Assembly: GCA_902555695.1 (NCBI GenBank)
Contig: CACDTV010000002.1
Location: forward strand, 1-64,000
Length of the DNA: 64,000 bases
Direction of reading: 5' to 3'
Source: an uncultured Alphaproteobacteria bacterium
Lineage (GTDB): Bacteria; Pseudomonadota; Alphaproteobacteria; HIMB59
The notes under the pieces were generated by a model. It saw only the letters and a list, made by a program, of their open reading frames with translations. It was not told where the DNA came from and did no database searches. Shown one piece after another: positions 19,314 through 35,946 of the stretch (position 1 is its first letter; each line of letters starts with the position of its first letter). The translations under genes were made by a program, and so were the position numbers.

Positions 19314-20300
19314 TTAAAATTTTTCAATTAATTTCTTTAAATGATTATCACTTACACCACAACATCCACCAATGATTTGTATTTGATCATCGATAAATTC
19401 TAGGCAAGAATTTGCAAATTCATCTTCGTTACATGTAGCTATAGCTTCATGTGTGCTTGTATCAAATTTATGTATTTCTGGATAAAACATCATAGGGCCG
19501 CTCCAATGATCTTTTATAATTTTCAAGCCACCATAGCTATCTTGAAACCACGTGTGCATAATACCATAAACATCTCCACCAATATTTGTTAATGTTTTTA
19601 TAATATCTTCAAATAAAATTATATCATCTTCAGGTAAAAATTTTGGTTGTTCTTGATATATTTTTTCATCATAAATTAGTGATTTCTCTTTTTCAGCTCT
19701 AAAATTTCTTCCAACTATCGTGTTATCATATTTACTTACACAACAACTTAATCCAACCCATACAGGTAAACCAGTTTGCATAGCAGCATTCAATAATAAT
19801 TGAGAATGGTCTTTGTCTAATAACATTTCTAATATTAAAATATCTACACCAGAATTTTTTAGTGTGTTAGCTGCCTCTATATAATTCTCTTCTTCTTGTT
19901 TTAATGACGGAATAAATCTTGGATCAGGTACAAATTCATTTTCCTTTAAAGCAAAAAAATTAGAGAGACTTCCAGCTATAGCAACCTGATTTTCCTTATT
20001 ACAGTTTTTTAATGCTTTTCTTGCTAATTCGACAGATCTAGTTAAAAATTCTATAGTTTCTTTTTCACGATTTAAACTTTGTAAAACATGTCTATTGGTT
20101 GCAAAAGTGTTAGCGGTAATGATATCACATCCAGCATTGATGAAGTTTTCATGAACTTTTACAACAATATCAGGAGATGTAATTGTTGATAATGCTGCAA
20201 AAGCAGGGCTCATATCTCCACCTAATTTAGCAATCTCAGAACCATTTCCACCATCGAGGAAAATTTTTGAATTGTTATTTAATTTTTCTTTAAAAATCAT
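19314..20300 (-). CDS. Homocysteine S-methyltransferase-family protein (copy 2)
   Basis: A 328-residue paralogue of the gene at 17.3 kb. FLDGGNGSEIAKLGG opens the barrel, GCDIITANTFATNRHVL follows, and zinc-site cysteines are present in LSCCVSK (C186/C187) and IIGGCCGVSDNH (C313/C314). A methyl transfer to homocysteine or another thiol is expected from the family, with the donor unknown. It overlaps the EamA transporter gene by 4 bases and is followed at 3 bases by the enolase-family gene, so it is translated as part of that operon. Confidence 0.85.
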   Translation of the reverse strand: MIFKEKLNNNSKIFLDGGNGSEIAKLGGDMSPAFAALSTITSPDIVVKVHENFINAGCDIITANTFATNRHVLQSLNREKETIEFLTRSVELARKALKNCNKENQVAIAGSLSNFFALKENEFVPDPRFIPSLKQEEENYIEAANTLKNSGVDILILEMLLDKDHSQLLLNAAMQTGLPVWVGLSCCVSKYDNTIVGRNFRAEKEKSLIYDEKIYQEQPKFLPEDDIILFEDIIKTLTNIGGDVYGIMHTWFQDSYGGLKIIKDHWSGPMMFYPEIHKFDTSTHEAIATCNEDEFANSCLEFIDDQIQIIGGCCGVSDNHLKKLIEKF

Positions 20301-21195: not shown

Positions 21196-22611
21196 TTAAT
21201 CTAACAGAGGTTTAAACTTACTAAAGTTAAATATTTCCTCATATTTTTTTGCAAAAGCAAATAATTGTAAATCATTTTTCCTTTTTCCAATTATCTGCAT
21301 ACCCATTGGCATACCAAGTTCATCAAATCCGACAGGGATAGTAAATGTCGGTAATTCAAGAAGACTGGATAATATAAAAATTTCTAACCAACGGTGGTAA
21401 GTATCTAACTCAAAAGAATTTATTTTTTCAGGAAACTGTTGATTTTTATCAAATGGAAATAGTTGTGCAGAGGGTAAAGCTAGAAAATCAAAGTTTTTAA
21501 AAATATTTTCAATTTGTTCTAAACACCTTTTTTTTTGTTTATAAGCACTATCTAAGTCTTCATCTTTTATATTTTTTCCTTGATTGAACTCCCATATAGC
21601 TTGGTAAGTCATTGTATTAATATCATTTATATTCATTGCTAAAGTATCATCGTAAATACTTTTTGATCTAAACGTAATCCAGCTATTCCATAGAGCTATA
21701 TTATCTAAATCTGGTTTTAATCTTTCAATTTTTATATTCAAGTTTTCTAATTTTTTAAGTTGAGACTCACACATATCTAAAATTTTTGTTTCAATTTTAT
21801 AATTGTTATTCATATTAGATAACCAACCTATTTTGATATTGGTTAAATCTTCATCTTTTATTTTTTGATTTTTAAAAAGTTCTTTTAAATCAAATGAGTA
21901 GTTATCCCTTGTATCACTTCCAATCATTTCATCTAATAAAAATGCCATATCACTTGGTGATTTTGCTAAACAACCAGGTGTTGTGAGTATGGGAATTTTT
22001 GATAATTGGTTCCCTCTATCTACTGAAATTAAGCCAGGTGTAGGTCTGTATCCATAAATATTTGCATATGCTGCTGGTCCTCTGCATGACCCCATTTGAT
22101 CAGTGCCGTCTGCAAATGGTATCAGTCCTGCGGCTACAGCTGTGCTGGCTCCTCCACTTGATCCTGCTGCAGATTTTGAGTTATCATAATAATTAGAAGT
22201 TGGGCCAAACAATCTGTTTATTGTATGTCCACCAACACCTAATTCCGCTGTGTTAGTTTTTCCAATTATAATAGCTCCGCTTTTAATTAGACGTTCTACA
22301 AATAATGAATTTTTTTTAGGAAAATAATCTTTTGTTCCAGGATAGCCATATGTTGTTTTAATGCCAACTACATCACTTAAGTCTTTAATAGCTATAGGAA
22401 TTCCATTTAAAGTCTTCTCAGATTGAGTTGAATTATCTTTATTTGTAGCTTCTTTTATAAGATCCCCTCTATCCTTGAGAAGCACTATTGCATTTAAATC
22501 TGGATTAAATTTTTCAATTCTATCCAAATAGTATTCCATTACCTCTTTGATAGATATTTGACGCTGGTGAATGCTTTGTATTATTTTTTCAACAGATTGA
22601 TCCTCAAGCAT
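21196..22611 (-). CDS. Amidase-signature family hydrolase
   Basis: A 471-residue AS-family amide hydrolase. The Ser-cisSer-Lys triad is readable as K76 (IAIKDLSD), S151 (AAGSSGGAS) and S175 (DQMGSCRGPA); the glycine/serine stretch is intact, so it is likely active. GatA is unlikely because no gatB or gatC is nearby and the gene sits among catabolic genes. The amide substrate is unknown. It starts 6 bases after the Fe-dependent dehydrogenase stop and is followed at 5 bases by EamA. Confidence 0.88.
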   Translation of the reverse strand: MLEDQSVEKIIQSIHQRQISIKEVMEYYLDRIEKFNPDLNAIVLLKDRGDLIKEATNKDNSTQSEKTLNGIPIAIKDLSDVVGIKTTYGYPGTKDYFPKKNSLFVERLIKSGAIIIGKTNTAELGVGGHTINRLFGPTSNYYDNSKSAAGSSGGASTAVAAGLIPFADGTDQMGSCRGPAAYANIYGYRPTPGLISVDRGNQLSKIPILTTPGCLAKSPSDMAFLLDEMIGSDTRDNYSFDLKELFKNQKIKDEDLTNIKIGWLSNMNNNYKIETKILDMCESQLKKLENLNIKIERLKPDLDNIALWNSWITFRSKSIYDDTLAMNINDINTMTYQAIWEFNQGKNIKDEDLDSAYKQKKRCLEQIENIFKNFDFLALPSAQLFPFDKNQQFPEKINSFELDTYHRWLEIFILSSLLELPTFTIPVGFDELGMPMGMQIIGKRKNDLQLFAFAKKYEEIFNFSKFKPLLD

Positions 22612-22617
22612 AGAGGC

Positions 22618-23808
22618 TTAGCGAGCTTGTTTTATACTTTGAGTAACAATTTCTTTCATTTGCAACAATGATGCTTCTTTTGGATTTGTTGCATAGGCTT
22701 GATCCTGCATTGCTTTTTTTGCTATCCTTTCAGCACAGTCTTCGGGAACATCAATCTCACTTAAACTTTTAGGGATACTTAATCTATCTAGTAACATTTC
22801 GATATTTTGAGTAAATTCATTTACTGTATGACTTTCAAATTGCATAGCCTCTGACATTCTTTGAACTTTTTCATCCATACCTGGTAAATTGAAATGAAGA
22901 ACAGGCGGTAAAACAATAGCATTCGTCAAACCATGATGAGTATTAAATTCTGCTCCAACCATGTGCGATATAGAATGAACATTACCTAACCCCTTTAAAA
23001 AGGATATTCCTCCCAAGTATGACCCTATAATCATCCCACCTCTTGCCAACAAATTATTTGGTTCTTCTACCGCTAAAACAAGAGATTTTGAAATTAAATT
23101 AAGACTTTCCAAAGCAGCTCCATCACAAAGTGGATGAAAACCTGGCACACAGTATCCTTCGATACTATGTACAAGCGCATCGACACCTGTCCACGCTGTT
23201 AATTTTGGAGGCAATTCTAATGTTAACTCTGGATCTACTAGTGTAAATATAGGCCTTACATCTGGATGCCATATGCAAAATTTCATTCCTTTTTCTAAAT
23301 GTGTAACCATTGCTGTTATTTCTGTTTCAGCTCCAGTTCCTGCAGTCGTAGGTATGGTTATTATTTTTGGAAATGCATTTTCTTTTGTTATCTTTGGAAC
23401 AGGTTGTTCAAACTCAAAATCCCATAATGGGGTTTCACTATTAACGGTTAAACATATGGATTTACCACCATCCATTGCACTTCCACCACCAATAGCTATG
23501 ATTGAGTCGTGACTTCCATTTTTAAATTGGTCACATCCTTTGGATATCTCGTCATCTCGTGGGTTAGGAGATATATTATAAAATAAATCTGATTTAATAT
23601 TATTTTTAGACAATAATTCTATTAACTTTTTAATAAAAGGAAGATCCTTACTACCACTATCTGTTACAATAAGAGGATTTTTAATATCAAATTCCTCACA
23701 AAATTTTCCAATTTCATTAAATCTTCCTGGTCCATAATACGTGGTTGTCGGAAACGTCCAGTCTTGATTAGAGAGAATATCTTTTTCATTTAGTTTAAAG
23801 TTTTTCAT
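22618..23808 (-). CDS. Iron-containing alcohol dehydrogenase
   Basis: A 396-residue group III Fe-ADH. GGGSAMDGGK is the nucleotide-binding loop, TTAGTGAE a conserved turn, and metal ligands lie in WTGVDALVHSIEGY (D, H) and ISHMVGAEFNTHHGLTNAIVLP (H, H). It oxidises or reduces an unknown alcohol/aldehyde with NAD(P). It is the first gene of a tight five-gene minus-strand operon, and a 41-base divergent spacer with the plus-strand EamA gene must carry both promoters. Confidence 0.9.
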   Translation of the reverse strand: MKNFKLNEKDILSNQDWTFPTTTYYGPGRFNEIGKFCEEFDIKNPLIVTDSGSKDLPFIKKLIELLSKNNIKSDLFYNISPNPRDDEISKGCDQFKNGSHDSIIAIGGGSAMDGGKSICLTVNSETPLWDFEFEQPVPKITKENAFPKIITIPTTAGTGAETEITAMVTHLEKGMKFCIWHPDVRPIFTLVDPELTLELPPKLTAWTGVDALVHSIEGYCVPGFHPLCDGAALESLNLISKSLVLAVEEPNNLLARGGMIIGSYLGGISFLKGLGNVHSISHMVGAEFNTHHGLTNAIVLPPVLHFNLPGMDEKVQRMSEAMQFESHTVNEFTQNIEMLLDRLSIPKSLSEIDVPEDCAERIAKKAMQDQAYATNPKEASLLQMKEIVTQSIKQAR

Positions 23809-24770: not shown

Positions 24771-25805
24771 TCATTTAGATTTCATAGACTTCATAACAAT
24801 GGTTCGATCAATTTCTCCAACTAGCTCTCCAGATTGAGAATTTATTATAGGGTAGGCCGTATCATCTTCACATATCTGGTCAATTAATGTTTCAATTTTA
24901 GCTTTTTCATCTATGCATTTTGTTTTATCAGAAAATAATTTTTTTGACTCATCAGAACATTCCTTACGCATAACTTTTCCTGCGCTTAATACTTTATATT
25001 TTGGAACATCTTCACAAAAATCTTTAACGTATTTATCAACTGGGTTTGCCACAATTTCTTCAGGTGTTCCAACCTGAGAAATCTCTCCATCTTTCATAAT
25101 AGCAATATGATCTCCCATTTTTATTGCCTCTAAAAAATCATGAGTAATAAAAACCATAGTTCGTTGTAATTTTTTTTGTATGTCTAAGAGTTCGTCTTGC
25201 ATTTCTCTTCTAATCAATGGGTCTAAAGCAGAAAATGGTTCATCAAATATTAAGATTTCTGGCTCAACTGCCATTGCACGTGCTAAACCAACTCTTTGTT
25301 GCATTCCACCTGATAGCTCTCTTGGATAATTGTTATGCCAACCTTTTAAACCAACAAGATTTAAAGACTCTGTAGCCTTGTCTAATCTTTCTTGTTTTTT
25401 TTCTCCCCTAATTTCTAAACCATAAGAAATATTTTCAAGAACTGTCCGATGTGGAAAAAGTCCAAAGTGTTGAAATACCATACTCATTTTATTTCTTCTA
25501 AGGTCAAGAAGGCTATTTCTACTTATTTTTGTGATGTCAATATCATCAATAATTACCGATCCAGATGTAGGTTCAATTAATCTAGTTAAACATCTAACTA
25601 AAGTTGATTTTCCACTACCTGATAACCCCATTACAACAAATGTTTCACCTTTTTGAATGGAAAAGCTTACATCTTTTACAGCTACTACATGTCCGGTTTT
25701 TTCTTGGACTTCGTCTCTACTTAAATTTGGATCTAAATTGTCTAAAATTCTTTTTTCGTCATTGCCAAAAATTTTCCATATATTTGAGCAAACAATTTTA
25801 TCCAT
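24771..25805 (-). CDS. proV: Glycine betaine/proline-type ABC transporter ATP-binding protein
   Basis: ProV/OpuAA-type ATPase that drives quaternary-ammonium or sulfonium osmolyte uptake. In the 344-residue protein Walker A GLSGSGKST is at 60-68, Q-loop MVFQHFGLFPHRTV, signature LSGGMQQRVGLARA, Walker B ILIFDEPFSALD, and a C-terminal CBS-like region (about 285-340) that in this family senses ionic strength. An N-terminal extension before AVKDVSF is normal for ProV. It is divergent from the permease gene at 25903; the 97-base AT-rich spacer should hold both promoters. Confidence 0.9.
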   Translation of the reverse strand: MDKIVCSNIWKIFGNDEKRILDNLDPNLSRDEVQEKTGHVVAVKDVSFSIQKGETFVVMGLSGSGKSTLVRCLTRLIEPTSGSVIIDDIDITKISRNSLLDLRRNKMSMVFQHFGLFPHRTVLENISYGLEIRGEKKQERLDKATESLNLVGLKGWHNNYPRELSGGMQQRVGLARAMAVEPEILIFDEPFSALDPLIRREMQDELLDIQKKLQRTMVFITHDFLEAIKMGDHIAIMKDGEISQVGTPEEIVANPVDKYVKDFCEDVPKYKVLSAGKVMRKECSDESKKLFSDKTKCIDEKAKIETLIDQICEDDTAYPIINSQSGELVGEIDRTIVMKSMKSK

Positions 25806-25902
25806 ATTATTCAGGTTTAAAGCTATTATAATTGTGAATTAATACTATTAAAATAAAATTATTTTTATAAATTCTTATATAATTGAATAAATATACTTAA
25901 AT
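25806..25902. promoter_or_regulatory. Divergent promoter region, proV / proW
   Basis: A 97-base, almost pure A+T spacer separates the divergent ATPase and permease genes. It contains several TATAAT-like hexamers on both strands (for example around 25865-25880), but no convincing -35/-10 pair or inverted-repeat operator could be singled out. Both transcripts must start here or inside the flanking starts. Confidence 0.4.
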
Positions 25903-28026
25903 ATGTCTTTAAATCAAAATATAGATACTAAAAATAAATTAAATAAAAATATAATTTTTTACTTAAGTATTTTTATCATTGGGGCAGTTGCATATTATCT
26001 GTCGATTATTAATGAGGACCCTACTGTATTTCCTAAATCTATTACTGATGAATTTAAATTTACCGCATGGATAAATGCTGGAGAGGATTATTTAAAAGAT
26101 AACTATAGATGGATAACGAGATTATTTGCCTCTTTTTTACAAGCCGGTTACATGGCATTAGAAAATTTCTTTGTTGAATCTCCATGGATTTTAATAATGT
26201 CTTTAATGGCTCTTCCAGCTTTAGCATATGGTGGTATTAAATTAGCTCTATTTTGTATGTTTACAGTTTATTTCTGGGGTGCTGTGGACATGTGGGAAGT
26301 CTCAATGCAAACATTAGCATTAATGGGTTTATCAGTAATTTTATCTGTAATTTTTGGAGTTATCCTAGGAATACTTAGTTCTCAAAGTGATAGATTTGAA
26401 AATTTTCTAAAACCTATTTTAGACACCATGCAAGTCATGCCTGCCTTTGTATATTTATTCCCTGCTATGTTCTTTTTTGGAATTGGCGGTGCTCCAGCAA
26501 TACTTGCTACATTAATTTATGCTATGCCCCCAATTATAAGGTTAACAAATTTAGGAATAAGACAAGTATCTAAAGAAACAATAGAGTCAGCTGAGTCTTT
26601 TGGATCTAATAAACTTCAGCTTTTATTTAAAATTAAAATTCCAATGGCCTTACCAAGTATCATGATGGGTGTTAATCAAACAATTATGATGGCTTTAGCT
26701 TTAGTTGTTCTTGCAACTTTTATTGGTGCTGAGGGTTTAGGTGGTCAAGTATGGCAAGCAATTAGAAAATTAGATGTTGGTTGGGCGATGGAAGGGGGCT
26801 TGTGTATTTTATTTATGGCTATAATGTTTGACAGAATAAGTAGTGCTATTAGTAAAGAAAAAGATAGCTTACCAGATGATGTAATAAAATTTTACTTATT
26901 ACCACAAAATTTACACAGAAACCCTGTAGCAAACTTAATTGAATTACCCTTGAGAATATCTGTAAAGCTTATAAATAAATTTTTTACAACTATTATTAAT
27001 GTTTTTGCTAATATTATTTCTAGCTTAATTTCTCTTTTTAATAAATCTGATAATAATTCTGTTAAAAATTTTATAAATCAACGATATTTTTTATTTTCAT
27101 CATTTTTAATTTTTATCTTCATTTATATTTTTGATGCATACATTTATAGTATAGGAACTTTCCCAGAAACATGGGCAATTGATATCCAAAAACCAATAGA
27201 AGATGCTGTTAAGGCAATGACTCTTGATCCTGGTTTTATATCATTTGCAAAAGGCATGAAGTATTTTGTTTACTTGTATTTACTAAATCCATTAAATTTA
27301 TTTCTAACTCAGATACCTTGGTGGTATACAATGATTGTTTTTATACTTATAGGATATGTTACAGTTGGAATAAAGTTTGCCACCATTACCGCAATATTAT
27401 TAGCCTTTATTGGAGCTACAGGTATGTGGGTGCATTCAATGATTACATTATCTTCAGTATTGGTTTCAGTTTTAATTTGTTTTGTTATAGGTGTACCACT
27501 TGGAGTAATAGCATCCTACAATAAATGGTACAGAGATATCCAAAATGTTGTTTTAGATGCAATGCAAACTTTGCCTTATTTTTGCTATTTAATTCCTGTT
27601 TTAATGTTTTTTGGAGGAAATATAGTATCTGCAGTTATTGCAACAGTTATATATTCTGTGCCACCAATAATAAGATTAACAGCTCTTGGTTTGTCACAAG
27701 TTTCAGGGAGCTATTCAGAGGTATCTAAATCTTTTGGAGGAACAGGAATTCAAACTTTAAATAAAGTAAAATTTCCACTAGCTGTTCCCAGTCTAGTCAT
27801 GGGTTTTAATCAAACTGTAATAATGGCATTTGCAATGCAAATTGTTACACCATTGATTGGAGGAAAAGGTTTAGGACTCCAAGTATTTAATGCACTTCAA
27901 AGATCAGATACAGGAAGAGGTCTATCAGCCGGTTTAGCTATCGTTCTTCTAGCTATTATCATCGATAGGATAACCCACGCCTGGACTAAGAAACAAAGAC
28001 AAGCCCTTGGATTAGATAAATCCTAA
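25903..28026 (+). CDS. proW: Two-domain glycine betaine/proline-type ABC permease
   Basis: A 707-residue membrane protein with two complete ProW-like permease domains. The first is at about residues 110-320 (LDTMQVMPAFVYLFPAMFFF, ESAESFGSNKLQL) and the second at about 480-700 (LDAMQTLPYFCYLIPVLMFF, VSKSFGGTGIQTL), joined by a helical linker. Usual ProW is about half this size and dimerises; here both halves are fused, a form known in some alphaproteobacterial osmolyte importers. The repeated EAA-type loops would each contact the ProV ATPase. Its stop overlaps the next start (TAATG), coupling it to the molybdoenzyme gene. Confidence 0.9.
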   Translation: MSLNQNIDTKNKLNKNIIFYLSIFIIGAVAYYLSIINEDPTVFPKSITDEFKFTAWINAGEDYLKDNYRWITRLFASFLQAGYMALENFFVESPWILIMSLMALPALAYGGIKLALFCMFTVYFWGAVDMWEVSMQTLALMGLSVILSVIFGVILGILSSQSDRFENFLKPILDTMQVMPAFVYLFPAMFFFGIGGAPAILATLIYAMPPIIRLTNLGIRQVSKETIESAESFGSNKLQLLFKIKIPMALPSIMMGVNQTIMMALALVVLATFIGAEGLGGQVWQAIRKLDVGWAMEGGLCILFMAIMFDRISSAISKEKDSLPDDVIKFYLLPQNLHRNPVANLIELPLRISVKLINKFFTTIINVFANIISSLISLFNKSDNNSVKNFINQRYFLFSSFLIFIFIYIFDAYIYSIGTFPETWAIDIQKPIEDAVKAMTLDPGFISFAKGMKYFVYLYLLNPLNLFLTQIPWWYTMIVFILIGYVTVGIKFATITAILLAFIGATGMWVHSMITLSSVLVSVLICFVIGVPLGVIASYNKWYRDIQNVVLDAMQTLPYFCYLIPVLMFFGGNIVSAVIATVIYSVPPIIRLTALGLSQVSGSYSEVSKSFGGTGIQTLNKVKFPLAVPSLVMGFNQTVIMAFAMQIVTPLIGGKGLGLQVFNALQRSDTGRGLSAGLAIVLLAIIIDRITHAWTKKQRQALGLDKS

Positions 28027-30371
28027 TGGGTTTTAAGAAAGATCTTCCTTTAACTAGTTCGCATTGGGGAACTTATAGAGCAAAAGTAAATAATGGGAAA
28101 GTCACAGAATTAATTGGATGGGAAAATGATAAAGATCCATCACCAATAGGACCAGGTATTGTAGACATTCACAATAATCAAACACGAATTGATAAGCCTA
28201 TGATAAGAAAAAGTTGGATTGATAATGGACCAGGAACAAACAATAACTTAAGAGGGATAGATCCTTTTGTGGCCGTATCTTGGGATGAAGCTGAAAATAT
28301 AGTGGCCAAAGAATTAAACAGAGTAAGAGAAAACTTTGGTAATTCCTCAATATTTGGTGGATCTTATGGCTGGGCTAGTGCTGGAAGATTTCATCACGCT
28401 CAAAGCCAACTACATCGTTTTTTAAATTGCATTGGTGGCTACACGAGATCAAAGTTTACTTACAGTTTTGCAGCAGCAGAAGCAATGGTTCCCCATATAC
28501 TTGGAAGTTATAGAGCCTATCTTGATACCTGCACAAGTTGGGACTCAATCGAAGAAAATACAGAACTATTTGTATGTTTTGGAGGAGTTCCTTTAAAAAA
28601 TGGTCAAATAGCTCAAGGTGGAACTGGAAGTCATAATCAAAAAGAAAAACTTATTAGTTCTGCTAAAGCTGGCATAAGATTTGTAAATTTGAGTCCACTT
28701 AAAAGTGACTTGTTAGATGAAGTTAAAGGAAAGTGGTTACCTTTAAGACCTAATACTGATGTAGCAATTATGCTCGGTCTAGCACACACTCTATATAAAG
28801 AAAATTTATATAATGAAATATTTATTAAAAAATACACAGAAGGTTTTGATATTTTCTTACCATATCTTTTAGGAGATTTAGATGGGGTAGTAAAAGATGC
28901 TAATTGGGCTTCAGAAATAAGTGAAATCTCATCAGAAGAAATTATATCTCTAGCAAGGGACATGTCCTCAAAGAGAACTATGATATCTGTTAGTTGGTCT
29001 TTAACTCGCCAAGATCATGGTGAACAGCCTTTTTGGGCAGCAATTATGCTGGCATCAATGTTGGGTCAAATAGGTTTACCAGGTGGTGGATTTGGATTTG
29101 GTTATAGTGCAACTAATCACATTGGTGGGCAGTTCTCTATTATTCCTGGTGCTGCTTTTCCACAATCTGATAACAAAATTGAAAATTTTATTCCAGTTGC
29201 AAGGATAAGTGATTTACTTTTAAATCCGGGTGATACTTTTCACTTTGATGGCAAAGAGTATGAATATCCTGATATTAAATTAATTTATTGGGCAGGTGGA
29301 AACCCATTTCATCATCATCAAGATATTAATAAACTTTTACTAGCTTGGCAAAAACCTGAAACCGTTATTTCTAATGAATGGTGCTGGAATTCTTTAGCTA
29401 AATATTCAGATATTATCTTACCTTGCACTACTCCACTTGAAAGACAAGATATAATGCTTACCCCAAGAGATCCTTATGTAATCTCAATGACAAAATTAGT
29501 TGAACCTTTTAAAGAGGCTAAAAGTGATTTTGATATTTTTAGAGGAATTGCAAAAAAAATGGATGTCGAAAATCTTTTTACTGAAGGAAGAGATGAAGAA
29601 GATTGGCAAAAATGGATTTATCAAGAAACATCAGTCAAATCAAAGACATTAAAAAATATTGATTTTCCTAGCTACCAGGAGTTTAGAAAAATAGGGTGGT
29701 TTAAAGTTCCACCACCAAAAGAAAATACAATCATGTTAAAAGATTTCAGAGAAGATCCTACTAAATTCCCGCTCTCCACTCCAAGTGGAAAAATAGAAAT
29801 ATATTCCAAAACAGTAGATAGTTTTAATTATGATGATTGTCCTGGTCATCCAACCTGGTTAGAACCCTGTGAATGGCTTGGAAGTAAAAATAAAAACTAT
29901 CCTTTACATTTAATATCTAATCAACCAAAAAATAAATTACATAGTCAAATGGATCACGGAGGTTATAGTAAATCTTTCAAAATTAAAGATCGTGAACCAA
30001 TTGAAATGAATAGTATTGATGCGAGCAGTCGTGGAATAAATAAGGGAGATATAGTAAAACTTTTTAATGATAGAGGTGCCTGTTTAGCTGGTGTAAACAT
30101 TAATGATAATATCCGCCCTGGAGTTGTTCAAATTAGTACTGGTGCATGGTACGATCCTGAGGACACTAAAAATTTAAAAACTATCTGTAAACATGGCAAT
30201 CCTAATGTCCTTACAAAAGACAAAGGAACTTCAAAATTAGGTCAAGGTCCTATAGCACACTCATGTCTCATCGAAGTAGAATTAGTTAAAGATAAAATTT
30301 CACCTGTGACAGCATTTGACCCTCCTGTTATTATTCGTGATTATAAATCTAATAGAGTCATTGATAAATAA
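28026..30371 (+). CDS. Cytoplasmic molybdopterin oxidoreductase, DMSO/biotin-sulfoxide reductase type
   Basis: A 781-residue enzyme of the DMSO reductase family. It has no twin-arginine signal and no N-terminal [4Fe-4S] cysteines, so it is cytosolic like BisC. SYGWASAGR gives Y114 and W116, and a serine at 147 (FTYSFAA) is placed like the molybdenum-ligand serine of Rhodobacter DMSO reductase. The tyrosine is known in DMSO and biotin-sulfoxide reductases rather than TorA, which argues for a sulfoxide substrate. Later motifs include YWAGGNPFHHHQDINKL, SDIILPCTTPLER and HLISNQPKNKLHSQMDHG. The gene is coupled to the permease upstream (TAATG) and the GcvT-like gene downstream (TAAATG). The substrate is inferred, not proven. 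Confidence 0.88.
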   Translation: MGFKKDLPLTSSHWGTYRAKVNNGKVTELIGWENDKDPSPIGPGIVDIHNNQTRIDKPMIRKSWIDNGPGTNNNLRGIDPFVAVSWDEAENIVAKELNRVRENFGNSSIFGGSYGWASAGRFHHAQSQLHRFLNCIGGYTRSKFTYSFAAAEAMVPHILGSYRAYLDTCTSWDSIEENTELFVCFGGVPLKNGQIAQGGTGSHNQKEKLISSAKAGIRFVNLSPLKSDLLDEVKGKWLPLRPNTDVAIMLGLAHTLYKENLYNEIFIKKYTEGFDIFLPYLLGDLDGVVKDANWASEISEISSEEIISLARDMSSKRTMISVSWSLTRQDHGEQPFWAAIMLASMLGQIGLPGGGFGFGYSATNHIGGQFSIIPGAAFPQSDNKIENFIPVARISDLLLNPGDTFHFDGKEYEYPDIKLIYWAGGNPFHHHQDINKLLLAWQKPETVISNEWCWNSLAKYSDIILPCTTPLERQDIMLTPRDPYVISMTKLVEPFKEAKSDFDIFRGIAKKMDVENLFTEGRDEEDWQKWIYQETSVKSKTLKNIDFPSYQEFRKIGWFKVPPPKENTIMLKDFREDPTKFPLSTPSGKIEIYSKTVDSFNYDDCPGHPTWLEPCEWLGSKNKNYPLHLISNQPKNKLHSQMDHGGYSKSFKIKDREPIEMNSIDASSRGINKGDIVKLFNDRGACLAGVNINDNIRPGVVQISTGAWYDPEDTKNLKTICKHGNPNVLTKDKGTSKLGQGPIAHSCLIEVELVKDKISPVTAFDPPVIIRDYKSNRVIDK

Positions 30372-31568
30372 ATGGGAAATTTACAAGAAGAAGCTGATCT
30401 AAATCAAACAATTAAAATTAGTGCTCGTAGATTTGAAGAGTCTCCATTCATTCAGCGTACTAATACTTCGAATATGGTTAGAGGCGTCTATGCAGGAAGA
30501 TACTTTCCTATGAAAATTGATGAAGATCCTTCAGAAAAATATTGGCTTTTAAGACAAAAAGCTCTTTTATTTGATGTTCCAGAAAAACCGATAGAAATAT
30601 CAGGAAAAGACTCAGTTTCTTTTTTGAATAAAGTGCTGACAAGAGAAATTTCAAAAACAAAAATTGGTAGAGGTTATTATGCTCTTGCCTGTACACCAAA
30701 AGGTGGAATTTTCATGGATGGAGTTTTATTTAGATTTGATGAAGAAAAGTTTTGGTACGTTCAAGCGGATGGCCCATTTGAAGATTGGCTTATTGCTCAT
30801 AGTTCAAATTATGATGTTCAAATAAAAGACCCTAAATCTAGAGTTCTTCAAATTCAAGGTCCGGCATCAATCGATATCATGAAGTTAGCCTCCAATGGAA
30901 AGATTGATGAAAATATGCCTTATTTTACATCCAATTTTTTTGATCTAGGAGGGCAAACTTTATATGTTTCAAGAACAGGTTTTACAAATGAATTAGGATT
31001 TGAAATTTTTTGTGATGGTTTTAACACAGACCATTTGGCTCTGTGGGACTATCTTATTGAATGTGGTAAACCATATGGTATGCAATTTTCTGCCTCAAGA
31101 GCCATGACCATAAGAAGAATTGAGGGTGGTATTTTTGGAAATTTAACTGATATTGATACAACAATTACTCCTTTCGAAGCTGGACTTGGGTATTTTGTGA
31201 ATATGGATAAAGATTTTATCGGTAAAGATGCGTTAATTAAAAAAGATAAAAGGACTTGTTTATTTGGAATAACATGTAAAACAACAGTTCCTAAAGCAGG
31301 AAGTAAAATAAAAATTAATGATAAACATGTCGGTTACATAACAGCAGGTGTACCGTCTCCAACTCTCCAACAAGGAATTGGTTATGTAAGATTTTATGAA
31401 CCAAATGATTATATAAATAAAGAGATAGAAATAATTCTCCCAGATAATTCTTCACACACTGGAGTCGTTGTGGATTTACCTTTTTATGATAAAGAAAAAA
31501 AAATTGTAAAGGGTATAGATAGATCTATTCCCATTAAACCTGATAGTAATTCTTTTGATGCAAAATAA
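30372..31568 (+). CDS. GcvT/DmdA-like aminomethyltransferase-family protein
   Basis: A 398-residue folate-binding protein of the GcvT fold. KIGRGYYALACTPKGGIFMDG and ARSG-like VSRTGFTNELGFEIF match the family, as do RRIEGGIFG and FEAGLGYFVNMDKDFIG near the tetrahydrofolate site. Length and layout resemble both glycine-cleavage T protein and DMSP demethylase DmdA; no other glycine cleavage genes are nearby, so a stand-alone methyl transfer to folate is more likely. It starts on the base after the molybdoenzyme stop and its end overlaps the SDR start by 11 bases. Substrate is unproven. Confidence 0.85.
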   Translation: MGNLQEEADLNQTIKISARRFEESPFIQRTNTSNMVRGVYAGRYFPMKIDEDPSEKYWLLRQKALLFDVPEKPIEISGKDSVSFLNKVLTREISKTKIGRGYYALACTPKGGIFMDGVLFRFDEEKFWYVQADGPFEDWLIAHSSNYDVQIKDPKSRVLQIQGPASIDIMKLASNGKIDENMPYFTSNFFDLGGQTLYVSRTGFTNELGFEIFCDGFNTDHLALWDYLIECGKPYGMQFSASRAMTIRRIEGGIFGNLTDIDTTITPFEAGLGYFVNMDKDFIGKDALIKKDKRTCLFGITCKTTVPKAGSKIKINDKHVGYITAGVPSPTLQQGIGYVRFYEPNDYINKEIEIILPDNSSHTGVVVDLPFYDKEKKIVKGIDRSIPIKPDSNSFDAK

Positions 31569-32346
31569 TTTCCTTAAAAATAAAAAAATTATTTTATCTG
31601 CTGGTGCCTCTGGGATAGGTCTAGCTACTGTAAAATTATTACTATTACAAGGTGCTATTGTTTATACATGTGATATTGATAAAAAAAATATTAATAAACT
31701 AAAAAAAAATTCATACTTTAATAAAAAACTTTTTATATCAGAATGCGATGCTTCAAAAGAAGATGAGGTGAAAAAATTTTATAAAGAAATATCAAATAAA
31801 ACAAAAAAAATAGATGGACTTATAAATAATATTGGAATAGCTGGACCCACATCTCCTTTAGAGAAAATTAAATCTGATGATTGGGAAAAGACCTTACATG
31901 TAAATATTAATAGTCATTTTTATTTTACTAAATATGCAATACCCATGATTAAGAAATCTAAAAATGGCTCAATCATTAATATTTCCTCTACAGCTGGTAT
32001 TGATGGTTTTCCTAATAGATCACCTTATGCGGCAAGCAAATGGGCCTTAGTTGGTATTACTAAAACTTTAGCAATGGAATTAGGTAAATTTAATATACGA
32101 GTAAATGCAATATGCCCGGGTTCTGTTAAAGGTGCGAGAATGATAAGAGTCATAAAAGCGAAAGCAAAAATGTTAAAGCAATCTGTAAGATCAATTGAAA
32201 AAGATTTTGTTTCTATGAGTTCTTTAAAACAATGGGTTTATGAAGATGATATAGCAAAAATGTGTTCCTTTTTAATTTCTCAAGACTCCCTTAGAGTCTC
32301 AGGTCAAGTAATTTCTATTGATGGAAATACTGAGAGAATGGATTAA
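31558..32346 (+). CDS. Short-chain dehydrogenase/reductase
   Basis: A 262-residue NAD(P)-dependent SDR. The cofactor motif is SAGASGIGLAT (Ala-Gly instead of the usual TGG/TGA start), NNIGIAG follows, and the catalytic Ser (NISSTAG), Tyr and Lys (SPYAASKWAL) are intact; ICPGSVKGARM is the usual substrate loop. A TTG at 31555 precedes the ATG at 31558; the ATG is chosen. It overlaps the GcvT-like gene by 11 bases and converges on the BKACE gene with a 4-base overlap. A hydroxyacid or carnitine-like alcohol is a possible substrate. Confidence 0.87.
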   Translation: MQNNFLKNKKIILSAGASGIGLATVKLLLLQGAIVYTCDIDKKNINKLKKNSYFNKKLFISECDASKEDEVKKFYKEISNKTKKIDGLINNIGIAGPTSPLEKIKSDDWEKTLHVNINSHFYFTKYAIPMIKKSKNGSIINISSTAGIDGFPNRSPYAASKWALVGITKTLAMELGKFNIRVNAICPGSVKGARMIRVIKAKAKMLKQSVRSIEKDFVSMSSLKQWVYEDDIAKMCSFLISQDSLRVSGQVISIDGNTERMD

Positions 32347-33230
32347 GTTTTTTTTAGCTTTAAATAATCTCTAGTCTCTTGGGGACTCATAATAGAGGAG
32401 CCCAACTCATGAACTATTTTTATTGCCTTTTCAACTAATTGTGGATTAGTTGCAAGTTTTCCCTTTGATAAATATAAATTATCTTCAAGCCCAACTCTGG
32501 GATTACCTCCAAGTAAAACTGTTTGTGCAACAAAGGGCATTTCATTTCTTGAAATTGCAAAGCCTGACCAAATAGCATTTTTAGGCATGACATCTAACAT
32601 TGCAATCATAGCTGTAGTTTTTGCTGGAGCTCCCCAGGGAATTCCTAAACACATTTGATATAAGGGTGGGTCGCTAAGTAATCCTTCTTCGTAAAGCTGA
32701 GCACCAAACCACATATTACCTAAATCAAATGCTTCAACTTCAGGTTTAACCCCAATTTCTTTTAATCGTTTTGCTGCTTTTCTTAAATCATTTGGAGTAT
32801 TGACTGCCAACACAGAACTATCACCAAAATTTAAAGTTCCAGCATCAAGTGTACAAATTTCCGGAAGTAATTCCTCTACATGAGATATTCTTTCCATAAT
32901 ATTAGCCATATCTGTATATGGACCAAAATCCATTGGGTTATCTCCTTCACCTATATCTAAATCACCTCCCATACCGGTTGTTAAATTAATAATTACATCA
33001 GTGTTACTAGATCTAATTATTTCAACTACTTCCTTATAAAATTCAAATTTTCGACTAGGCGTTCCATCTTCCTCTCTGACATGAATATGAACTATAGATG
33101 CACCTGCTTGAGCAGACTCTATTGCGGATTTAGCTATTTGTTTTGGAGTCTTTGGAAGATCAGGATGTTTTGATGCAGTGTCACCGGATCCATTAACAGC
33201 ACATGTAAGAAATACTTTAGTTTTCATCAT
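32343..33230 (-). CDS. BKACE-family beta-keto acid cleavage enzyme
   Basis: A 295-residue DUF849/BKACE TIM barrel. These enzymes condense a beta-keto acid with acetyl-CoA to give acetoacetate and a new CoA ester; known substrates include 3-keto-5-aminohexanoate and 3-dehydrocarnitine. The zinc histidines are in IVHIHVREEDG, and other conserved blocks are NLTTGMGG, TLDAGTLNFG and GNPRVGLEDNLYLSKG. Starts at 33230 or 33227 are both possible (ATGATG). It is divergent from the betaine-type binding protein gene, which makes a dehydrocarnitine-type reaction plausible but not shown. Confidence 0.88.
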   Translation of the reverse strand: MMKTKVFLTCAVNGSGDTASKHPDLPKTPKQIAKSAIESAQAGASIVHIHVREEDGTPSRKFEFYKEVVEIIRSSNTDVIINLTTGMGGDLDIGEGDNPMDFGPYTDMANIMERISHVEELLPEICTLDAGTLNFGDSSVLAVNTPNDLRKAAKRLKEIGVKPEVEAFDLGNMWFGAQLYEEGLLSDPPLYQMCLGIPWGAPAKTTAMIAMLDVMPKNAIWSGFAISRNEMPFVAQTVLLGGNPRVGLEDNLYLSKGKLATNPQLVEKAIKIVHELGSSIMSPQETRDYLKLKKT

Positions 33231-33363: not shown

Positions 33364-34365
33364 ATGAGAATATCTAAAACAATTATAACTTTTATTCTAT
33401 CCTCTATTCTTTTTACCGCAACATTCAGTAAAGCTAATGCTGAAAAATTATTAGCAGCAATCGCTGACTGGACTGGTGGAGAGATTTCATGTCAAGTAGC
33501 TGTAAGCATACTTGAAGATGAGTTAGGATACGAAATTGATAGAATCGTATTTGCCTCAGGAACTGGCTTGTGGGAAGCTATTGCTGCAGGTGATATTGAT
33601 TTTGCATGTGAGTCATGGCCTAGTTACGCTGAAGCTGATGAGGTTATGTTAAATGGCGACTTAATTCATGGTGGGGAAGTTAAAATGACTTACTCAGGTG
33701 ATGGAAGTGTAAAATTACTTGGAACTGTTGGTATTACCGGTATGTCAGATTACTATGTTCCAAAATATTGGGCTGATGCAAATCCAGATTTTTCTAGCTA
33801 TGCTGATTTAAATAAATTCAAAGAAGATTTTGCGACTATGGAGTCTGGTGGTAAAGGTCGATTAATTGGTTGTCCAGTTGCTGGTTGGAACTGTCATGAT
33901 CAAAAAAGATTAGACCTACTTGGTTTAGACTTTGTTGCTGATGAATTAGGAACTGAAACAGCTGCTCTTGCTGAAGCGCAAGGTATGTACGATAGAGGTG
34001 AACCTTTCTTAATGTATCTTTGGGAGCCTCATTGGTTCTTTGGTGTTAACGAATTAGTAGGTGTAAAATTAGCTCCAAATAAAACTTGTGATACCTTTAC
34101 CGAGGCAAACAACTGGGAAACTTGTGGAGCTGACTCTTGGCCAGCAACAGGTTGGGCTGTTGACTATCCAATGAACTACGGTAATCCTGATACATTTGCT
34201 AAACCAGAAAACCAAAAAGCACTTGAATTCTTTGGTAAAATGGCATTATCAAATGCAGATCAAGCAGCGATGCTCGTTAAAGTTCGTGAAGGTGGTGAAC
34301 TTAATGATGTTGTTGCTGAATGGAAAGCAAACAATAAATCTACTTGGGAGAAATGGTTACCATAA
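33364..34365 (+). CDS. proX: Glycine betaine-type ABC transporter substrate-binding protein
   Basis: Periplasmic receptor, 333 residues, for the ProV/ProW-type importer encoded 5-8 kb upstream. A signal peptide covers about residues 1-26 (cleavage after KANA). The mature part has the OpuAC-type layout: ADWTGGEISCQVAV, IAAGDIDFACESWPSY, and several tryptophans (WPATGW, YLWEPHWFFG) that could form an aromatic cation box. Paired cysteines suggest disulfides. It is a single-gene unit with a strong ribosome site, followed by an inverted repeat. The ligand could be betaine, choline, carnitine or DMSP. Confidence 0.88.
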   Translation: MRISKTIITFILSSILFTATFSKANAEKLLAAIADWTGGEISCQVAVSILEDELGYEIDRIVFASGTGLWEAIAAGDIDFACESWPSYAEADEVMLNGDLIHGGEVKMTYSGDGSVKLLGTVGITGMSDYYVPKYWADANPDFSSYADLNKFKEDFATMESGGKGRLIGCPVAGWNCHDQKRLDLLGLDFVADELGTETAALAEAQGMYDRGEPFLMYLWEPHWFFGVNELVGVKLAPNKTCDTFTEANNWETCGADSWPATGWAVDYPMNYGNPDTFAKPENQKALEFFGKMALSNADQAAMLVKVREGGELNDVVAEWKANNKSTWEKWLP

Positions 34366-34449: not shown

Positions 34450-35946
34450 TTGACAGACTCACTCTATTCAAATCTTGTTGAAACTAATTTAGACAATAAT
34501 AAAACTTTTTTAATATTAGATGATGGATCCGAGATTACTTATAAAAATTTCATAATTCTTGCATCAAAAATTTCTCACAAATTATCAAAGTTAGGGTTAA
34601 AATCAGGTAGTCACATTCTTGTAAAGTCCGCCAAATGTAAAGAGACTTTAGCTCTTTATTTATCATCTATTCTTACTGGGTCAGTTTTTTTTCCACTTAA
34701 TACAAGCTATACAGTTAATGAAACAATTTATTTTATAAAGGACTCAAAACCATCTTTTCTTATCTGTGATAAATCAGAAATAGATAGTTTAAAACCATTT
34801 TGCGATGAAATTGGCTGTAGAATTTTATCTTTAAATGCAAACGGAGTTGGAGAGATTACTGATGGTTTAGAAAATCTTGATAGTTTTTTTGAACCATCAA
34901 AAAGAACATATAATGATTTAGCAGCACTTTTATATACCTCTGGGACTACAGGAAAACCTAAAGGTGCTATGTTAACTGAACAAAATTTAGTTTCAAATGC
35001 TCAAGAACTAATAAATTTATGGAATATAAATCGCAATGATACTTTAATCCATTCACTTCCAATTTATCATACTCATGGATTGTTTGTTGCTATTAATACC
35101 TCCATGATAAGTGGAGCTACTATTAGATTTATAAAAAATTTTAATACAGACTCAATTATTGAAGCATTTAATTATTCAACTCTGATGATGGGTGTTCCAA
35201 CTTTTTATACGAGATTGTTGAATGACAAAAGACTAGATAAGAAATTAACACAAAATATGAGATTATTTATATCTGGAAGTGCTCCATTGTTAAATCAAAC
35301 ATTTAAAAATTTTTATAGAGTAACCGGTCATCAAATATTAGAGAGATATGGTATGACTGAAACTAATATGAATGCCTCTAATCCTTGTGATGGGGAAAGA
35401 AAGGCAGGATCAGTTGGTAAACCTTTAAAAGATATTAAAATAAGAATAAATAATATTCAAAGTGATAATAATAAATCAGAAAATGATATTGGAACAATAG
35501 AAATAAATGGTCCTAATGTATTTAAAGGTTATCTAAATAATCCAAAAAAGACACAAGAGGCATTTACTAAAGATGGTTTTTTTATAACCGGTGATATTGG
35601 ATATTTTGATAATGATGGATATCTATTCATATCTGGAAGAAATAAAGATTTAATCATAAGTGGTGGATATAATGTTTATCCTAAAGAAATTGAAGATATT
35701 ATTAATCAACACGAATTAGTTTTAGAGTCTGCTGTTTTTGGTATCCCTAATGACGATTTAGGTGAAGTACCTATTGCAGCAATAGTTATGAAGAATAATT
35801 TTACAGATTTAAATGATCTTAAAGATTTTTTAAAAAAACACTTAGCGAAATATAAAATTCCAAATAAATATATATTGTTGGATGAACTTCCAAAAAACGT
35901 CATGGGAAAAGTTCAAAAAAATACTTTAAAAGAAAAATATTCCTAA
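34450..35946 (+). CDS. Acyl-CoA synthetase, malonyl-CoA synthetase (MatB)-like
   Basis: A 498-residue AMP-forming ligase. The adenylate P-loop TSGTTGKPKG is near residues 162-171, followed by HSLPIYHTHGL, ERYGMTETNM and the hinge region GYFDNDGYLFISGRNKDLIISGGYNVYP, with a C-terminal catalytic lysine in MGKVQKNTLKE. The ERYGMTETNMNASNPCDGER block resembles MatB (malonate:CoA ligase), so malonate or a methylmalonate-like acid is the best guess. The start is TTG at 34450; no usable in-frame ATG is near, and no ribosome site is clear. Confidence 0.82.
   Translation: MTDSLYSNLVETNLDNNKTFLILDDGSEITYKNFIILASKISHKLSKLGLKSGSHILVKSAKCKETLALYLSSILTGSVFFPLNTSYTVNETIYFIKDSKPSFLICDKSEIDSLKPFCDEIGCRILSLNANGVGEITDGLENLDSFFEPSKRTYNDLAALLYTSGTTGKPKGAMLTEQNLVSNAQELINLWNINRNDTLIHSLPIYHTHGLFVAINTSMISGATIRFIKNFNTDSIIEAFNYSTLMMGVPTFYTRLLNDKRLDKKLTQNMRLFISGSAPLLNQTFKNFYRVTGHQILERYGMTETNMNASNPCDGERKAGSVGKPLKDIKIRINNIQSDNNKSENDIGTIEINGPNVFKGYLNNPKKTQEAFTKDGFFITGDIGYFDNDGYLFISGRNKDLIISGGYNVYPKEIEDIINQHELVLESAVFGIPNDDLGEVPIAAIVMKNNFTDLNDLKDFLKKHLAKYKIPNKYILLDELPKNVMGKVQKNTLKEKYS

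Follow-up and report, generated by a model that had tools for sequence, protein, structure and literature searches.

Organization of the locus

The DNA analysed here, called the window throughout, is a stretch of 64,000 nucleotides (contig CACDTV010000002.1, positions 1 to 64,000) from an uncultured alphaproteobacterium of the lineage HIMB59. It carries genes for a betaine-type ATP-binding cassette (ABC) importer, a molybdoenzyme and a GcvT-like enzyme, and this set is one real, conserved unit. The permease and both enzymes are encoded within positions 25903–32346. The coordinates of the open reading frames (ORFs) and their junctions there were all found on re-reading as a preliminary description had given them, and Pfam and NCBIfam agreed with its naming. 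The double permease ProWW (25903..28026, plus strand) contains two BPD_transp_1 stretches (Pfam) and, with both stretches summed, matches the choline permease model TIGR03416 at 426.7 bits (cut-off 363). It is followed by a predicted cytosolic S/N-oxide reductase-like enzyme of the molybdenum-bis(molybdopterin guanine dinucleotide) type (28026..30371, plus strand; Molybdopterin and Molydop_binding domains, bisC_fam/TorA-like), in which no leader was seen. The next gene encodes a predicted GcvT-fold, folate-type methyl- or aminomethyltransferase (30372..31568, plus strand; GCV_T and GCV_T_C in Pfam), which the tree and AlphaFold model described below assign to a group that we call family X.

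Two importer genes that were absent from the gene list of that description are both retained with the unit across loci. The ProV-type ATPase (24771..25805, minus strand) is transcribed divergently and passes the cut-off of the proV subfamily TIGR01186 (368.5 against 326.6 bits), which puts the importer in the betaine/proline/choline class. The substrate-binding protein ProX (33364..34365, plus strand) is of the OpuAC type (119.6 bits). Between ProV and ProWW lies an AT-rich intergenic region of 97 bp (25806..25902), presumed to be the control region. Promoter-like matches in the region scanned numbered 40, fewer than the mean of 61.4 in shuffled sequences, and no promoter is claimed; terminators were scanned as well.

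The stop codon of ProWW overlaps the start of the molybdoenzyme gene (TAATG at 28024), and the start of the GcvT-like gene directly follows the stop of the latter (TAAATG at 30369). A gene for a short-chain dehydrogenase/reductase (SDR) starts with the ATG at 31558 and overlaps the end of the GcvT-like gene by 11 bases; an alternative TTG start 3 bases earlier is possible. Such coupling had been taken to imply one pathway. Among the 34 same-strand adjacent pairs of the window, the gap is at most 10 bp in 19 and the genes overlap in 12. Short junctions are thus the rule in this genome, so coupling alone is no proof of one pathway, and the part of that argument which stood is gene order, conserved across loci and lineages.

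Conservation of the unit

Genome contigs scanned with the GcvT-like protein as query yielded 46 loci, 36 of them close (L003–L037 and L040; 73–99% identity). The molybdoenzyme gene lies directly upstream of the GcvT-like gene in 35 of the 36, and the remaining locus (L035) starts inside the GcvT-like gene at a contig end. ProWW lies directly upstream of the molybdoenzyme gene in 34, the other two being cut by contig ends. The gap between the molybdoenzyme and GcvT-like genes is −1 to 13 bp across the 35 loci holding both, and that between ProWW and the molybdoenzyme gene is −4 to 1 bp across the 34 loci that also hold the permease; the informative part of this spacing is its conservation across loci, not the tightness itself. 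No molybdoenzyme gene was found within the stretches examined of the 10 remoter loci, which hold GcvT-like relatives at 27–48% identity. The genome of one of them (L043) carries the unit elsewhere.

Orthologues of the molybdoenzyme (at least 76% identity) and of the GcvT-like protein (at least 75%) occur in an identical set of 33 of the 162 genomes of the window's order, all of one genus. The two genes are adjacent in 32 of these genomes, and G130 has each on its own broken contig. Nineteen of the 52 listed genomes of that genus were without the molybdoenzyme; at the thresholds used, 14 of the 19 held only a paralogue of about 47% identity and 5 held neither. Samples of the family Pelagibacteraceae, to which G168 belongs, were drawn separately for the two proteins. 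The molybdoenzyme was found in 4 of 297 genomes and a close GcvT-like protein in the same 4 of 287, the genes being adjacent in all four; two of these positives were already known from the contig scan. The order in this family is compact, ProV / ProWW-molybdoenzyme-GcvT-like-ProX, and ProX directly follows the GcvT-like gene in Pelagibacterales loci. A third lineage (G172) has ProX-ProV-ProWW-molybdoenzyme-GcvT-like on one strand, then a small gene, which we take to be of the VOC type, and then a second family-X gene. Its molybdoenzyme and GcvT-like protein are 67% and 63% identical to those of the window, the transporter only 27–51%. The two family-X genes of G172 stand in one operon (L084, 5866–8670) and are 63% and 39% identical to the gene of the window. 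The conserved synteny that the preliminary description had proposed to look for is thus present in the close loci, in the genomes of the order, in Pelagibacteraceae and in G172.

The GcvT-like protein and family X

The GcvT-like protein matched 8 NCBIfam families, in each case with a score under the cut-off. A glycine-cleavage GcvT identity was rejected at 129.2 bits (TIGR00528, cut-off 235.85), the tree placing GcvT on the other side, and a DmdA identity at 158.5 bits (NF009133, cut-off 410), family X lying outside the DmdA-like clade. Full-length trimethylamine N-oxide demethylase (TDM), which has an additional N-terminal domain, was rejected at 187.1 bits, with a match of the C-terminal part only (NF053776, cut-off 1100). 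DmmD was rejected as well: the Paracoccus protein is on the opposite side of the tree split, and the genes of the unit are not dmmABC.

The tree of GcvT-fold proteins comprised 40 rows, of which E. coli GcvT (the sole GcvT row) and some others are long branches. Family X is a group of 21 rows (support 100/100), and a DmdA-like clade of 6 rows is separate from it (99/98). A split with support of 100/98 divides family X and the DmdA-like proteins from GcvT, TDM, DmmD, DMGDH and SoxA. The protein therefore groups beside DmdA and not with glycine-cleavage T proteins, the grouping that the preliminary description had named as refuting its reading; as judged from its sequence it is a member of an uncharacterised family beside DmdA. 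The AlphaFold model (pLDDT 83.3) has the GcvT fold. GcvT, DmdA and DMGDH were not separated in the fold comparison (Z 38.3–40.7 in the top 13 rows), and no TDM chain was among the rows shown, though the sequence search matches 9q59/9q5a. With such similar Z scores, the fold favours neither methyl nor methylene transfer. The first Asp of a 'DD' motif, common to DmmD, TDM, SoxA and E. coli GcvT, is Met, Ile, Val, Ser or Thr in family X; since DMGDH rows from the window's own genome are also without the Asp, the motif was not relied on as decisive.

Family X also occurs apart from the unit. In loci L076 and L077 of a second family of the order (f2), it adjoins a homocysteine S-methyltransferase-like gene, named from sequence, and in L077 it is also near a DmdA-like gene, as placed by the tree. 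A homocysteine S-methyltransferase-like gene is present in the window (19314–20300), about 10 kb upstream of the GcvT-like gene, and is 28–32% identical to those adjoining family X in L043 and L077. In two genomes of the family of G170, family X pairs with a Rieske oxygenase (L095, 8105–10446, and L096, 9392–11727; L078, 4608–6969). These Rieske genes are 66–68% identical to a Rieske gene of G111 that is convergent to family X near the trimethylamine N-oxide (TMAO) operon. From its gene content, the pair is a candidate for the step of dimethylamine demethylation that has been reported as missing in SAR11 (PMC5520151). No molybdoenzyme gene was present in the stretches read around 12 family-X loci in 295 genomes of G170's family, 11 of which are informative (L086 ends inside a ligase gene).

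These contexts bring in the main rival explanation, that the GcvT-like enzyme is a formaldehyde trap yielding methylene-tetrahydrofolate, and that the molybdoenzyme acts in an O2-independent oxidative demethylation of an N- or S-methyl compound, releasing formaldehyde. Its rank as the main rival is owed to the other partners of family X, namely Rieske oxygenases (L095, L096) and TDM, which family X follows in the TMAO operon of the window's own genome. DmmD, a GcvT-type protein, has moreover been proposed to conjugate formaldehyde with tetrahydrofolate (PMC5520151). The tree nevertheless splits family X from both DmmD and TDM, and the loss of the first Asp of 'DD' points the same way, although it is suggestive only, given the DMGDH rows. 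We know of no bisC-type enzyme that hydroxylates methyl groups, and we consider a formaldehyde trap unlikely.

The molybdoenzyme

The molybdoenzyme matches the bisC family model TIGR00509 over its full length at 946.6 bits, below the subfamily cut-off of 1017.55, and matches 1eu1, which we take to be the dimethyl sulfoxide (DMSO) reductase of R. sphaeroides, at 698 bits. An alignment with 1eu1 and E. coli BisC shows that it contains 'GSYGW' and 'YSFAAA'; the Ser of the latter is presumably the metal ligand, and the Tyr and Trp of the former are presumably active-site residues. The Tyr of 'GSYGW', which favours S-oxides over N-oxides, is kept in the enzyme; the aligned TorA of E. coli has a gap at this position. 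A TorA identity was rejected (686.7 bits to TIGR02164 against a cut-off of 1465; N terminus without leader, by eye), as was a BisC identity (37% to the E. coli protein, with the molybdoenzyme group split off in the tree).

In the tree, the enzyme falls in a group of 25 rows that stands apart from BisC and TorA of E. coli (support 100/100), the unit proteins form 7 rows (100/100), and a group of 16 rows (100/99) contains a relative from methylthioadenosine salvage. This tree supersedes a first one; it leaves out L098, which is long and leader-bearing, and L099, and adds six relatives. On the Ponticoccus plasmid p-SCP4 (L071, 9626–19329) a relative lies between mtnA, upstream, and TPP-enzyme/RuBisCO-like genes. 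This arrangement suggests that, in a methylthioadenosine salvage operon, the relative reduces methylthio sulfoxides.

The preference for a role within the unit has to be set against the view that the molybdoenzyme is a housekeeping biotin or methionine sulfoxide reductase, whose position here is due to chance or serves general expression. BisC-like annotation and the short gaps common in the genome are in line with that view, which is very improbable all the same: against it stand the identical sets of 33 and 4 genomes that hold both genes, a third lineage, a second association with family X (below) and the low identity to E. coli BisC.

Other relatives stand elsewhere. Nine genomes of f2 have a molybdoenzyme at 47–50% identity, and the three places read among the nine (L073, 3020–15384; L074; L075), with relatives at 49–50%, show another context, between EutC-like (eutABC-like) and amino-acid ABC transporter genes, which we take to be an ectoine-type operon. 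On Agrobacterium pAt15955 (L102, 1–14032) a relative accompanies urocanate hydratase, histidine ammonia-lyase, amidohydrolases and a proline/betaine-type ABC transporter, a set that possibly serves histidine-betaine or ergothioneine-type catabolism. Further relatives are found beside RidA, beside an ornithine-cyclodeaminase-family gene or next to a dimethylformamidase-like gene, and some have no evident partner. On the Vibrio pelagius plasmid p_1 (L100, 1–8292), a ProVWX importer and a relative flank folM, folE, folX and folK.

Such variety means that the chemistry of the group is not fixed. Instead of reducing an S-oxide, the enzyme might, for example, catalyse a dehydroxylation or a desulfuration, and the unit might degrade a quite different betaine, as the eutABC-like, urocanate hydratase/histidine ammonia-lyase, RidA, ornithine-cyclodeaminase-family and dimethylformamidase-like neighbours of its relatives would allow. 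We find this doubtful, as the nearest context of readable metabolism is methylthioadenosine salvage and the Ser/Tyr/Trp motif of the DMSO reductase type is intact.

A second association on Roseobacter plasmids

Family X and a 59%-identical molybdoenzyme occur within about 15 kb on one Tritonibacter plasmid and on three Phaeobacter inhibens plasmids that are nearly identical to one another. The cluster between them encodes GlxA and LysR regulators, an aldehyde dehydrogenase, an alpha/beta hydrolase, an SDR, a TRAP transporter, a crotonase and an acyl-CoA ligase. A related genome (L087) has the order family X-ligase-aldehyde dehydrogenase-crotonase, with no molybdoenzyme gene in the stretch read. 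Real genes of GC-rich loci were masked by longer false frames in the ORF lists, and such loci were re-read by tblastn against our own reference set.

In the first molybdoenzyme tree, ten rows from the unit, Phaeobacter, Tritonibacter and Sulfitobacter were on one side of a branch (support 53/45). A single clade of unit and plasmid molybdoenzymes, tested as nine rows without Sulfitobacter, was rejected by the approximately unbiased (AU) test (p-AU 0.00018), and the GcvT-like proteins of unit and plasmids are in different subclades of family X. These placements suggest that the pairing has two origins, a point in favour of a functional link.

Another Phaeobacter plasmid, pP30_b (L072, 5857–13053), encodes a DmdA-like GcvT protein (377 bits, cut-off 410) with an acyl-CoA ligase, an enoyl-CoA hydratase and a selenium-binding-family protein, which we assume to be of the methanethiol-oxidase type. 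As far as its genes tell, this set looks like plasmid-borne demethylation of dimethylsulfoniopropionate (DMSP).

Separate DMSP and TMAO genes, and the ligand of the importer

The genome of the window has a DmdA of its own on another contig, above the NF009133 cut-off (482.8 against 410 bits), and its TDM and Tmm are both above their cut-offs. Its TMAO operon consists of a permease (cut by the contig end), TDM and a family-X paralogue 47% identical to the GcvT-like protein, the paralogue standing next to TDM and Tmm. In the corresponding operon of G111 the order is ProX-ProV-double permease-TDM-family X, and a LysR gene of opposite orientation separates TDM from family X. Binding proteins were compared with known structures. 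A protein from contig C29 of the window's genome matches 7yle (E 9.8e-75) and is DmpX-like, the protein of the G111 TMAO operon matches 4xz6 (E 1.5e-65) and is a TmoX homologue, and the ProX of the unit matches 4xz6 at only E 3.1e-8. The last is 22.6% identical to the C29 protein. The structure model of ProX (pLDDT 59) was too poor for use.

In ProX of the unit the aromatic positions appear to be kept, and Ser stands in the column of the TmoX Glu (Glu131 in DSS-3, Glu114 in TmoX1062). That Glu binds the N-oxide oxygen in TmoX and is needed for TMAO binding (PMC8918994), and the DMSP binder uses the same Glu through water (PMC10030565). The pocket of DmpX comprises Trp35, Thr64, Trp84, Glu113, Trp152, Tyr200 and Trp202 (PMC10030565). 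By alignment, 7yle is taken as the structure of DmpX, the Glu113, Tyr200 and Trp202 of the paper falling on its Glu, Tyr and Trp. Compared with this pocket by way of the C29 protein, the Trp and Tyr positions of the unit ProX look kept, Glu113 is replaced by Ser, and the placement of Thr64 is unsure. The Ser at this position makes neither TMAO nor DMSP a likely ligand.

The preliminary description had named DMSP and TMAO among the possible substrates. As dedicated substrates of the unit both are now unlikely, in view of the genome's own DmdA, TDM and Tmm, its separate DmpX-like protein and the Ser of ProX. For an N-oxide such as TMAO, the unit would reduce it to the amine and demethylate that with folate, in parallel to the TMAO operon, the molybdoenzyme replacing TDM. 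The TMAO operons of the window's genome and of G111 have a like architecture, with family X. Yet the genome already has TDM and Tmm, the TMAO operon of G111 comes with a TmoX homologue, ProX has Ser for the Glu that binds TMAO, and the molybdoenzyme keeps the Tyr that is missing in E. coli TorA. An N-oxide is therefore improbable.

Neighbouring genes

Three genes after the GcvT-like gene are accessory. The SDR (31558..32346, plus strand; Pfam/NCBIfam) is directly adjacent only in the window's genus, and is followed by a beta-keto acid cleavage enzyme (BKACE, Pfam; 32343..33230, minus strand) and, after ProX, by a malonyl-CoA-synthetase-like (MatB) acyl-CoA ligase (34450..35946, plus strand; 645.5 bits to NF005702, cut-off 558). 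All three follow the unit in the window's genus; among the loci scanned the ligase does so in that genus only. Seven Pelagibacterales loci extend past ProX. At the scan threshold the SDR was absent from five of them (L030, L031, L034, L036 and L037), and in the other two (L032 and L033) it is located after ProX, so it can no longer be counted as a member of the unit, as had been supposed. No SDR, BKACE or ligase was recognised beside the compact unit in L105 and L106. SDR, BKACE and MatB-like genes are outside the core and probably belong to a neighbouring pathway. Beside the SAR11 unit in L032 (12447–17402), SDR and BKACE genes are present. Their neighbours, which we take to be an alpha/beta hydrolase, an LLM-type flavoprotein, a 3-hydroxyacyl-dehydrogenase-like and a thioesterase-like protein, form a set that seems to resemble carnitine catabolism.

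On the other side, an amidase (21196..22611, minus strand) and an iron-type alcohol dehydrogenase (22618..23808, minus strand), both assigned with Pfam/NCBIfam, are retained beside the unit in both groups, the window's genus and Pelagibacterales. Two further neighbours conserved in both groups are presumably DMT-type transporter genes. The amidase, alcohol dehydrogenase and DMT-type genes may or may not belong to the unit.

Proposed function

We tentatively propose, at somewhat less than even chances, that the unit serves the uptake and catabolism of a small methylated, oxidised onium or S-oxide zwitterion, which the molybdoenzyme would deoxygenate and the GcvT-like enzyme demethylate onto folate. 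The proposal starts from what was observed: the set of genes, its conservation as a linked group, the placement of the proteins in their families and the separate DMSP and TMAO gene sets. ProX, ProV and ProWW would import a methylated S-oxide zwitterion. The molybdoenzyme would remove the S-bound oxygen in the cytosol, and the GcvT-like enzyme would move a methyl group to tetrahydrofolate and on to the folate C1-oxidation pathway. Folate as methyl acceptor, an S-oxide as substrate of the molybdoenzyme, the order of the steps and the compound itself are what we infer. Among candidate compounds dimethylsulfoxonium propionate (DMSOP) fits best, because it is the natural sulfoxonium analogue of DMSP and because demethylation and reduction would give methylmercaptopropionate (MMPA). 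Demethylation of DMSOP would yield 3-(methylsulfinyl)propionate and reduction would yield MMPA, which would enter the DMSP demethylation route; the two steps could also be reversed. Carrión et al. leave open whether DMSOP undergoes demethylation (PMC10686828). That DMSOP itself is the compound we hold to be rather unlikely, and a wider formulation is just as speculative: an undescribed route of SAR11 and other small marine alphaproteobacteria, in which DMSOP or a like sulfoxonium or sulfoxide osmolyte would be imported, demethylated with folate by a DmdA-sister enzyme and subjected to cytosolic sulfoxide reduction.

Several results weigh against the S-oxide proposal. Family X beside Rieske oxygenases (L095, L096) and TDM fits formaldehyde capture as well, and wider relatives of the molybdoenzyme occur in ectoine-type and urocanate hydratase/histidine ammonia-lyase settings or with no evident partner. 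Seawater DMSOP is about 0.14 nM, mostly 0.1–1% of DMSP (PMC10686828). The best DmdB candidate of the window's genome, which is 71% complete, scored 324 against a cut-off of 822. On the plasmids, family X and the molybdoenzyme are at opposite ends of about 15 kb, with a TRAP transporter and no ProXVW; the 25 best of the 66 families matched by the Phaeobacter ligase do not include the DmdB model NF005426, and none of the 12 families of the Phaeobacter crotonase is named DmdD. The grouping put to the AU test was picked after the first tree, and several molybdoenzyme rows have an unusual amino-acid make-up. Among 385 genomes of the class, molybdoenzyme relatives were found in 66 and family X in 11. 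Both occurred outside the window's genus in 3 genomes and were never seen together: in G1022 they are far apart on one contig, and in G925 and G1098 they lie on separate contigs, so that a linkage across contig ends may have been missed. None of the 6 molybdoenzyme relatives at 55–59% in this class sample was near family X, one of them (L109) being near a contig start. Locus L118 is the L041 contig reversed and was counted once.

The unit shares parts with several known systems. Like the DmdA/DmdB-D pathway, it has a GcvT fold on the sister side of the tree, and the Roseobacter family X is found with an acyl-CoA ligase, a crotonase and an aldehyde dehydrogenase; unlike DmdA, its GcvT-like protein, 27.8% identical to the DmdA of the same genome, is coupled to a molybdenum reductase and an importer of its own. 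The TmoXWV-Tdm-Tmm operon has the same importer class and a folate-linked demethylating enzyme, and a family-X paralogue stands beside the TDM of the window's genome, whereas the unit has the molybdoenzyme instead of TDM or Tmm, and a ProX without the Glu for TMAO. With the DMSP importer DmpXWV it shares a binding protein of the OpuAC type, in which most of the aromatic cage looks preserved, but the DmpX-like protein of this genome is a separate one, on C29. The molybdoenzyme has the fold family and Ser/Tyr/Trp motif of the BisC, DorA and TorA reductases, yet it forms a group separate from BisC and TorA, in an operon with an importer and a demethylase. Nearest in kind are the aminomethyltransferases SAR11_1303 and SAR11_1265, SAR11 GcvT-like proteins of unknown substrate, one of them near a betaine-type importer (Sun et al. 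2011, PMC3160333); in the portion of that paper available to us, no molybdoenzyme is described beside them. No described pathway combining an importer, a molybdoenzyme and a GcvT-like protein was found among the open-licence papers searched, as the preliminary description had surmised. Its general idea holds for the one conserved unit and for the GcvT-like protein beside DmdA, and fails for the SDR, which is not core, and for DMSP and TMAO, which are unlikely.

The unit is a new form of methylated-osmolyte catabolic operon, assembled from known families, and it supplies genomic contexts for an uncharacterised family of folate methyltransferases. It is also a ready candidate for the question of DMSOP demethylation. 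If the DMSOP route is true, these bacteria would not release DMSO; they would recover methyl groups and reduced sulfur from the pool of oxidised organosulfur compounds. If the substrate is another methylated oxide, the unit would still mark a compound to which bacteria of the open ocean devote two enzymes and an importer.

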